Source: Thermus neutrinimicus (GTDB taxonomy: Bacteria; Deinococcota; Deinococci; Deinococcales; Thermaceae). Taken from it: 64,000 bases of DNA. The stretch's first letter is position 1, and each line of letters opens with the position of its first letter. The stretch spans positions 1-64,000 of the forward strand of contig NZ_JAKTNU010000008.1 of assembly GCF_022760955.1 (NCBI RefSeq), read 5' to 3'. This document shows positions 61,399 to 64,000 of the stretch, in pieces. Below the pieces are notes generated by a model, which was not told the origin of the DNA, made no database searches, and was given only the letters and a program-made list of their open reading frames with translations. The position numbers were made by a program, and so were the translations under genes.

Positions 61399-62355
61399 AT
61401 GGATGCCTTGGAGCTCCTTCGCCTCAACCTCCTTTCCCCCATGGTCTTGGCCTTTGCCCTGGGGATGGCGGCCCGGTTTCTCAAGAGCGACCTGGCCTTC
61501 CCCGAGGCCATGTACACGGCGCTTTCCATCTACCTGCTCTTCGCCATCGGCTTCAAAGGGGGGGTTGAACTTTCCAAAACCCCTTTGGCCACCGTGCTTC
61601 TTCCCGCCTTAGCCACCTTGGGCCTGGGGCTTTTTAGGCCTCTTTCTAGTTATGCCCTGGCCCGCCGCCTCCTGGCCCTGGGCCGGGTGGATGCGGGAGC
61701 CTTAGCCGCCCACTACGGCTCCGTTTCCGCGGTGACCTTTTTGGCGGCCCTCACCTTTGCCCAAGCCCTTGGCCACCGGCCCGAAGGGTTTTTGCCCACC
61801 CTGGTGGCCCTCTTGGAGGTGCCGGGTATCGTGGTGGCCCTCCTTATGGCCAAGCGGGGGGGTGGGAACCTGGGCGAGGCCTTCCAGGAGGTCCTCACCG
61901 GGAAGAGCGTGGTCCTCCTGGTGGGAGGGCTTCTCGTCGGGGCCCTAAGCGGGGAGGCGGGGATGGAGCGGGTAAAGCCCTTCTTTGTGGATCCCTTCTA
62001 CGGGGCCCTCACCCTTTTCCTCATGGACCTGGGGATGGTGGCGGCCTCGAGGTTCGCCGCCTTAAGGCAGGTGGGCTTCCGCCTGGTCCTCTACGGAACC
62101 CTCCTCCCCCTCTTCCATGGGGCCATAGGGGTCTATGTGGCGCACCTGGTGGGGTTTTCTGCGGGTGGGGCCACCGTCTTGGGGGCCATGGCCGCCAGCA
62201 GCAGCTACATCGCCGCCCCTGCTGCCGTGCGCATCGCCCTGCCGGAGGCTAACCCCAGCCTGTATCTGACGGCCAGCCTGGCGGTAACCTTCCCCTTTAA
62301 CCTGGTTTTGGGTATCCCCATCTACCACGCCTTGGCCCAATGGATAGGGGGGTGA
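61399..62355 (+). CDS. sbtA: SbtA-type sodium-dependent bicarbonate transporter
   Basis: Membrane transporter of 318 residues with about ten helices in an inverted repeat (DUF897 family). It has [26 protein letters not shown] and [41 protein letters not shown], which agree with SbtA blocks that bind bicarbonate and sodium. An sbtB gene follows 3 bases after the stop, the usual pair. In a heterotroph it could supply bicarbonate for anaplerosis, purine (PurK) and fatty-acid synthesis (inference). Confidence 0.9.
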
Positions 62356-62358
62356 AGC

Positions 62359-62661
62359 ATGGACCTGGTGCCTTTGAAGCTGGTCACCATCGTGGCGGAG
62401 AGCATCCTGGAGAAGAAGCTGGTGGAGGAGATCAAGCGCCTGGGGGCCAAGGGGTACACCATCGTGCCCGCCAGGGGAGAGGGTTCCCGGGGCGTACGGA
62501 GCCTGGACTGGGAGGGGCAGAACATCCGCCTGGAAACCATCGTTCCCGAGGAGGTGGCCCTAAGGATCCTGGCCCGCTTGCAGGAGGCTTACTTCCCCCA
62601 TTACGCCGTGATCGCCTACGTGGAGAACGTCTTTGTGGTGCGGGGGGAGAAGTACATCTAG
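62359..62661 (+). CDS. sbtB: SbtB-like PII-family regulatory protein
   Basis: PII-like protein of 100 residues (MDLVPLKLVTIVAESILEKK...) whose T-loop region reads ARGEGSRGVRSLDWEGQNIRLE, close to SbtB GEGGRGVRSxDWEG. It probably binds adenyl nucleotides and controls the adjacent transporter. The C-terminus ends GEKYI without the cysteine pair (CGPxGC) of some cyanobacterial SbtB proteins, so redox control through that hairpin is not expected. The last 4 bases overlap convergent dedA. Confidence 0.88.
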   Translation: MDLVPLKLVTIVAESILEKKLVEEIKRLGAKGYTIVPARGEGSRGVRSLDWEGQNIRLETIVPEEVALRILARLQEAYFPHYAVIAYVENVFVVRGEKYI

Positions 62662-63185
62662 GCTTTTTCGCGGCGCAGAAGGGGAAGAAGGGCGAGGAGG
62701 AGCAGGATAGGCCAAAGAAGCCAGGCGGGAAGCCTTTCCCCCAGGAAGTAGGCGAAGAGAACGAGCCCCTGGGTCCAGAGGAGGCTTCCCAAGGCGGCCA
62801 GGAGCAGGTAGGGAAACCAGGGGAAGCCCAAGGCTCCCAGCAGGAAGGGAACCGCGGTGCGCATTCCCGGCACAAAGGGGGCAAGGAGGAGGGCCGAAGG
62901 GCCAAAGCGGCTTAGGAGCCTCATGGCCCGTTCCTGGAGGCGTTTGGGAAACCGCTTTAGGGTTTGGGAACCCAGGGCCCGTCCCAGGCCGAACCCCACC
63001 CCGTGCCCCAGGTAGCTTCCCAGGAATAATAGGGGAAGTAGGGGGAAGAGGCTGAGCTTGCCCTCCCCGGCCAGGGCTCCCAAAGCCAGGAGGAGGGTAT
63101 CCCCTCCGGGCACGAGGAGGCCAAAGGGGAATCCCACTTCCAAGAAGAGGAGAAGGGCCGGCAAAAGATAAGTCCAGGAGCTCAT
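62658..63185 (-). CDS. dedA: DedA-family membrane protein
   Basis: VTT/DedA-fold protein of 175 residues with about five hydrophobic segments. It shows the re-entrant motifs LEVGFPFGLLVPGGDTLLLALG and LLAPFVPGMRTAVPFLLGALG. DedA proteins move undecaprenyl phosphate or other lipids across the membrane (family knowledge). The gene starts 1 base after the terC stop and thus belongs to the riboswitch-controlled transcript. Confidence 0.88.
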   Translation of the reverse strand: MSSWTYLLPALLLFLEVGFPFGLLVPGGDTLLLALGALAGEGKLSLFPLLPLLFLGSYLGHGVGFGLGRALGSQTLKRFPKRLQERAMRLLSRFGPSALLLAPFVPGMRTAVPFLLGALGFPWFPYLLLAALGSLLWTQGLVLFAYFLGERLPAWLLWPILLLLALLPLLRREKA

Positions 63186-63186
63186 C

Positions 63187-63882
63187 CTACGAGGGTTGGG
63201 TTGCGGGCTTGCGCAAAGCCCAGAGGCTTCCCAGAAGGAGTACCGCCAGGATGAGGAGGCTGAAGGCCTCCTTGTCCAAGCCCACGGCCAGCTCGGGGCG
63301 GTGGAGCACCTCTTTCATGAGCTTGTCCCAACCCCCCACGAGAAGCTTCACCCCCGCAAGCCCCACCACCCCATAGGCCAGGTGCTTGAACCGGGGGTAC
63401 CGGTCCAGGAGATTCACCACCAGGCTGGCCAGCATCCTGAGGGCCAGGATGCCCAGGAAGACCCCGGTGTAGATGACCCATAGCTTGTCGGAAAGGGCCA
63501 CGGCCACCAGGACCGAGTCCACGGCAAAGGCCAGGTCCATGAGCTCCACCTGGGCCACCGTTTTCCAAAACTGCGCGGCGCTCACCTCCAGAGGGGGTGG
63601 GGCATGGGCTTCCTGGGGCCTGAGGAAGTGCTTCAGGGCCACGTAAAGCAGATAGGCGGCCCCCAGCGCCTGGACCCACCAGAGCTTGATGACCAAGGCG
63701 GCGAAGAAGAGGGCGAGTCCCCTGAGCACGTAGGCTCCCAGGATGCCATAGAAGAGGGCCTTGCGCCTGAGGTGAACGGGCAGCTTTTGGACGATGACCC
63801 CCAGGATGAGGGCGTTGTCCGCGGAGAGGATGACCTCGAGGGCCACCAGGATCAGGATCACCGAGAGAACACCCGCTTCCAT
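63187..63882 (-). CDS. terC: TerC-family integral membrane protein (metal exporter-like)
   Basis: Protein of 231 residues with about seven to nine helices. The acidic metal-site motifs ALEVILSADNALILG and ELMDLAFAVDSVLVAVAL define the TerC/Alx family, which exports manganese or metalates secreted proteins. The start at 63882 (MEAGVLSVI...) follows AGGAGG by 5 bases. It is preceded by a terminator and a yybP-ykoY-like riboswitch, matching a manganese role. Confidence 0.93.
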   Translation of the reverse strand: MEAGVLSVILILVALEVILSADNALILGVIVQKLPVHLRRKALFYGILGAYVLRGLALFFAALVIKLWWVQALGAAYLLYVALKHFLRPQEAHAPPPLEVSAAQFWKTVAQVELMDLAFAVDSVLVAVALSDKLWVIYTGVFLGILALRMLASLVVNLLDRYPRFKHLAYGVVGLAGVKLLVGGWDKLMKEVLHRPELAVGLDKEAFSLLILAVLLLGSLWALRKPATQPS

Positions 63883-63893
63883 GCACACCTCCT

Positions 63894-63925
63894 AAAAGAA
63901 AAAGACCACCGCCCTTGCGGTGGTC
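63894..63925 (-). terminator. Riboswitch-controlled terminator upstream of terC
   Basis: On the minus strand GACCACCGC (63917-63925) pairs perfectly with GCGGTGGTC (63904-63912) around AAGG, followed by TTTTTCTTTT (63894-63903). Its 5' side includes GAGACC, which is part of the closing stem of the upstream aptamer. Ligand-bound aptamer should thus prevent this hairpin, turning expression on. Confidence 0.85.
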
Positions 63926-64000
63926 TCGCCCGGGCTTTTCGCCCCCAGCCTCCCGGGGCCTAGGCCCGTCCTGACGGGAGGCTGGTCTTGGGGCTACTCC
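63920..64000 (-). ncRNA. yybP-ykoY-type (manganese) riboswitch aptamer, 5' end cut by the window
   Basis: In the direction of transcription the RNA reads GGAGTAGCCCCAAG at the window edge, a long GC-rich arm with CCAGCCTCCCG pairing to CGGGAGGCTGG, and then GGGCGAGACC. GGGGAGUAG and the closing xGCxAGACC are the two conserved metal-binding/docking segments of this riboswitch class. The first strand of the closing stem lies beyond 64000. The terminator overlaps its 3' part. Confidence 0.85.

Follow-up and report, generated by a model that had tools for sequence, protein, structure and literature searches.

TerC membrane proteins are the classic targets of the Mn2+ riboswitch class. In Bacillus subtilis, TerC proteins act in Mn efflux and supply exported enzymes with Mn, and the TerC gene meeY (ykoY) is controlled by a Mn-responsive riboswitch (PMC10550928). 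The metal in these riboswitches is coordinated by phosphates together with N7 of an invariant adenosine, and the L3 loop that carries it reads UCA41AUUC in Lactococcus lactis and ACA48UACU in Xanthomonas oryzae (PMC6754395, PMC9190785). In the L. lactis yoaB riboswitch (PDB 4Y1I) the terminator arm overlaps the P1.1 helix, with Mn2+ stabilising P1.1 and forcing read-through (PMC11087558).

The leader of terC in the Thermus genome analysed here (2.06 Mb) is very probably an Mn2+ riboswitch that acts on transcription and belongs to the yybP-ykoY class, Lactococcus type. It lies on the minus strand at 63894-64000 of the window (the whole 64,000-base stretch analysed, bases 1-64000 of the 78,354-base contig C8) and runs on to about C8:64007; the window thus ends inside the element, between a switch-helix strand at C8:64001-64007 and L1, whose first base is 64000. 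Like yoaB, the leader features an L1 internal loop formed by GGAGUAG and GAGA, a seven-base L3 with the invariant adenosine, and a P1.1 helix that overlaps an intrinsic terminator and would give the same ON logic; helices P1, P3, P3.1 and P4, a platform competing with P1.1 and a TerC target are further class features that it shows. It differs from the L. lactis switch in the gene controlled (terC rather than yoaB), in L3 positions 42-44, and in the absence of P2, where yoaB has a four-way junction. The B. subtilis meeY switch is comparable by gene and class, though taxonomically distant.

A -10 box (CACAAT, C8:64013-64018, minus strand) places the likely transcription start at about C8:64006, seven bases past the box; among the 25 distinct Thermus leaders, the distance from the end of a -10-like box to GGUUGG or a variant of it is 6-7 bases. 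The 5' strand of P1.1 (CGGUUGG, C8:64001-64007, outside the window) stands directly upstream of the 5' strand of L1 (GGAGUAG, 63994-64000), which is invariant in 25/25 Thermus terC leaders and whose last G opens P1; the 5' strand of P1 (GCCC, 63991-63994) pairs with 63928-63931, and relatives have GCC/GGC or ACC/GGU at this helix. The junction CAAGA (63986-63990) between P1 and P3 stands in place of P2. P3 consists of 11 pairs between CCAGCCUCCCG (63975-63985) and CGGGAGGCUGG (63945-63955), and flanks the predicted metal-binding loop L3 (UCAGGAC, 63968-63974), whose A63972 would correspond to A41 of L. lactis, and the hairpin P3.1 (GGGC-CUAG-GCCC, 63956-63967). The P4 hairpin (GGGC-GAAAA-GCCC, 63932-63944) is followed at 63924-63931 by the 3' strands of P1 (GGGC, 63931-63928) and L1 (GAGA, 63927-63924), then by the 3' strand of P1.1 (CCACCG, 63918-63923), which either pairs with CGG-U-UGG at C8:64001-64007 or joins the terminator. 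The terminator, GAGACCACCGC-AAGG-GCGGTGGTCTT (3' arm as RNA: GCGGUGGUCUU), spans 63902-63927 with 11 perfect pairs and a U-rich tail (a T-run) reaching about 63895. A putative Shine-Dalgarno sequence AGGAGG (63888-63893) precedes terC (63187-63882, minus strand; PF03741, Pfam E = 2.5e-49), which likely starts five bases past it at ATG 63882 to give a 231 aa protein; the mechanical ORF list gave GTG 63888. TerC matches are found in 50/50 Thermaceae genomes. The original prediction, which named GGAGTAG (64000-63994) and GCGAGACC (63929-63922) as a motif pair ahead of a perfect terminator and a terC target, agrees with this anatomy, and the upstream pairing partner sought beyond the window end is the strand at C8:64001-64007.

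The CCACCG segment is common to P1.1 and the 5' arm of the terminator, so the two pairings are mutually exclusive and an ON switch would follow, as had been proposed. At low Mn2+ the CCACC(G) strand would go to the terminator and transcription would end ahead of terC; at high Mn2+, L1 and L3 would dock around Mg2+ and Mn2+ and keep P1.1 closed, which would block the terminator and allow terC, plus dedA where present, to be transcribed. The TerC product would then export Mn2+ or load it into extracytoplasmic enzymes. The Mn2+ response, the ON direction and the co-transcription of dedA are what we infer from the pairing and from the class. In folding calculations the competing forms are about equal in energy at aptamer length and the terminator form gains much once it is transcribed; ligand capture must therefore precede terminator synthesis, in line with what is described for L. 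lactis.

The Rfam model RF00080 (Manganese) describes the same motif class, yet the leader scores 10.3 bits on it (E = 1.2, exactly at the site) against a cut-off of 45, a library threshold rather than a biological feature; taken alone, such a score would count as noise. An Rfam search returned no RF00080 row at the gathering threshold or at E <= 10; the best local match, RpsF_leader (20 bits, other strand), was judged to be chance. This miss was not accepted as evidence against a riboswitch: among 16 loci put through Rfam, no leader reached the RF00080 cut-off, and as these 16/16 canonical-looking leaders fail too, the gathering score is uninformative and the low value reflects the model, not the terC leader. 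A covariance model, R2, was built from leaders of other phyla: these were gathered by the bare L1 motif, and the 35 with an L3-like loop and P1.1 were retained, none of them from Deinococcota. These leaders are well formed, with 17 pairs changed on both sides, and at least 16/35 precede a terC homologue. R2 gives the extended terC leader 49.6 bits (E = 5.2e-12 in 83 kb, 1.3e-10 genome-wide), bearing out the predicted class from independent data although the Rfam score is low. The sole further match in the whole-genome search is a leader before a PF04298 gene, and the search found no riboswitch match adjoining the other TerC paralogues (C5:99243 and C2:80193). Across the genus, the terC leader scores at least 32 bits in 27/27 Thermus genomes, where noise reaches at most 21 bits.

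In every one of the 27 Thermus genomes, terC has this leader directly before it. Over the 25 distinct Thermus sequences 92.7% of cells in the aptamer helices are paired, and 99% in P1.1; for the terminator the figure is 98% in 25 genomes. Seven pairs have changed on both sides (25 such cells), a signal equalled in 0/500 shuffles and one that collapses when the pairing partners are slid. The compensatory changes fall in P3 (three pairs), P3.1 and P4 (two pairs); P1.1 and P1 are nearly invariant within Thermus, and covariation backs these two helices across genera only. The 3' half of L1 is CGAGA in 6/25 Thermus terC leaders and CAAGA in 19/25, so that GCGAGACC reads GCAAGACC in the latter while the window keeps the canonical G; the GCAAGACC variant may place an A-A in place of the A-G sheared pair. 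In the Meiothermus-like sister genus, the leader of the terC orthologues shares L1, L3 and the arrangement of the terminator with Thermus, and RF00080 detects it (best E about 1e-6); the cut-off of that model is reached in no Deinococcota genome searched. A third leader of the class was observed in three Meiothermus-like genomes (L004, L005 and L006, near 1501-1596), before a short basic ORF (MKKIFFKLLALLVGRLLA...).

The absence of P2 does not set the Thermus leader apart. The short terC leaders of Bacillus, Halobacillus, Paenibacillus and their relatives have the same helices, an 11-pair P3, no P2 and a UCANNNC L3, and are often followed by a terminator and a terC homologue; they differ from Thermus in their AT-rich stems, in the junction sequence and in lacking a UUGGGG/CCCCAA 5' hairpin. 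A reading of the P2 loss as a new three-way-junction variant was rejected, because the helix is likewise missing from leaders of Bacillus, Listeria, Paenibacillus, Halobacillus and some Burkholderiales; leaders without P2 are frequent in Bacillus, Listeria and Paenibacillus and are not new, and P2, absent from many canonical-looking leaders, is not counted as class-defining. The short P2-less Mn-type branch (L136-L249, alignment A2) covers the same five groups; many of its leaders stand before terC, and the branch scores below RF00080 gathering. RF00080 thus overlooks these short leaders without P2, those of Bacillus and Listeria included.

That the leader is an ordinary terminator or attenuator with a chance similarity to the class would be consistent with the RF00080 miss and with the ease with which stems form in GC-rich DNA. 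This reading has a negligible probability and is already contradicted: specific loops are kept in all 27 genomes, compensatory changes are present, the independent model reaches a genome-wide E of 1.3e-10, and a count of the two-part motif over 50 related genomes gives 34 occurrences against 2 for a reversed-pattern control. The fold of the leader is also 3.4 s.d. better than that of shuffles; the resemblance is not chance. Class membership is accepted despite the RF00080 score because of the 27/27 Thermus leaders and their covariation, the Meiothermus-like leaders that RF00080 finds, and the R2 score. A different possibility, that the yybP-ykoY fold here senses another divalent metal (e.g. 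Fe2+, Co2+ or Zn2+) by an unchanged switching mechanism, draws on the proposal of Breaker's group that some yybP RNAs have probably changed ligand and are expected to sense other metals (PMC7266159). L3 positions 42-44 are GGA in the window against AUU in L. lactis; almost every Thermus terC leader has GGA or AGA there, and the gene behind the sister leader encodes a putative zinc metallopeptidase. However, UCAGGAC matches L. lactis at 39, 40, 41 and 45, so N7 of A41, the base-specific contact to Mn2+ seen in crystal structures, is retained; the Thermus loops UCAGGAC, UCAAGAC and UCAGUAC keep U39, C40, A41 and C45, and UCA...C is invariant in 25/25 Thermus leaders and in the 35 leaders of other bacteria. 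The argument from a divergent L3 to another ligand is further weakened by UCAAGAC, UCAGUAC and UCAAUAC loops in ordinary Bacillus, Listeria and Paenibacillus leaders, several of them before terC, and those TerC proteins that have been tested are manganese proteins (PMC10550928); a change of ligand is considered highly improbable, and Mn2+ is preferred as the ligand of the terC leader.

An extra element specific to Thermus is the perfectly paired 5' hairpin UUGGGG-AGUAG-CCCCAA (C8:63988-64004, reaching beyond the window end), which overlaps the 5' strand of P1.1, L1 and P1 and would compete with all three. As a real third state it would oppose the aptamer and aid the terminator, adding to the riboswitch explanation rather than replacing it. 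The hairpin is perfect in 22/25 Thermus terC leaders and appears in the best fold predicted for the complete leader, and a similar GGU(U)GG/CCACC pairing is possible in Meiothermus-like leaders; against this, members of the class do not generally have it, and it may simply follow from the P1 and L1 sequences. Its gain over the alternative OFF fold is about 3 kcal/mol at 37 °C and about 0.1 at 70 °C; since the energetic advantage is gone at the higher temperature, a functional role for the hairpin is a hypothesis regarded as doubtful. The Thermus terC leader as a whole appears to be a standard Mn riboswitch and a solid addition to a well-known class, rather than a new kind of switch.

Behind terC lies a dedA-like gene (62658-63185, minus strand, 175 aa) whose product has the VTT domain of DedA/UptA transporters (PF09335, E = 1.3e-14), a broad family. 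The terC stop at 63187 and the dedA ATG at 63185 leave exactly the one-base gap noted in the original prediction, and on this ground co-transcription is likely. The further proposal, that the two genes form one functional unit under the riboswitch which ties lipid-carrier recycling to manganese, is favoured by that same-strand spacing, by the retention of dedA behind terC in 23/27 Thermus genomes and in that sister genus whose TerC is closest, and by UptA, a DedA-superfamily protein that recycles undecaprenyl phosphate in other bacteria (PMC10216114). It is weakened by the remaining 4/27 Thermus genomes, which keep the riboswitch and terC while a whole-genome search (E <= 1e-5) found no homologue of this dedA, and in which terC meets sbtB directly or nearly so. 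The pair is also split in the two Meiothermus-like genomes searched, where the nearest dedA homologue lies elsewhere, and a search of the available literature for DedA with TerC and manganese, or DedA with a riboswitch, found nothing relevant. Such a unit is therefore regarded as very unlikely; metal regulation of dedA through the shared transcript stands as probable where the gene is present, dedA is dispensable to the arrangement, and the lipid-carrier link has adjacency as its sole support. The neighbouring sbtA-sbtB pair (window 61399-62661, plus strand), encoding a Na+/bicarbonate transporter (PF05982) and a P-II-like SbtB, is convergent with dedA and overlaps its end by four bases. The P-II gene (62359-62661) is almost identical to the PDB 2cz4 chain, named TTHA0516, a T. 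thermophilus HB8 locus tag, and this match supports the assignment to Thermus well. On the other side, a long CRISPR-like array (repeat GTAGTCCCCACGCACGTGGGGATGGCCCG) was observed outside the window at about C8:64500-68100; it adjoins an Fe-S assembly gene (PF01883) that is divergent from the terC leader.

The second yybP-ykoY-class leader of the genome (C3:117011-117113, plus strand; L003:3012-3114) scores 41.1 bits with R2 and stands directly before a gene for a PF04298 membrane metallopeptidase (E = 1.2e-81); a zinc-ribbon gene is also seen downstream. This leader has P2 and a very short P1.1, and its terminator, read from the sequence, would recruit the L1 strand CGAG. It stands before this gene in every Thermus genome with an exact motif of that type and in the sister genus. 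A search of the available literature for yybP-ykoY with a peptidase and TerC found nothing, and the association of the riboswitch with a PF04298 metallopeptidase is unexpected. It is tentatively proposed, as an unlikely reading, that Thermus has a two-gene Mn regulon of terC and the PF04298 metallopeptidase, perhaps with the 5' hairpin as a third state in the terC switch.

With the terC leader, the Mn2+ riboswitch class and its classic TerC target reach into a lineage of thermophiles where no genome searched passes RF00080; the aptamer of about 90 bases is GC-rich and probably heat-stable, and would be suited to structural and folding studies. The PF04298-linked leader adds to the manganese regulon a new candidate that can be put to the test; if the two-gene regulon is real, metal loading and quality control of membrane or exported proteins would rise together with Mn2+ in Thermus.
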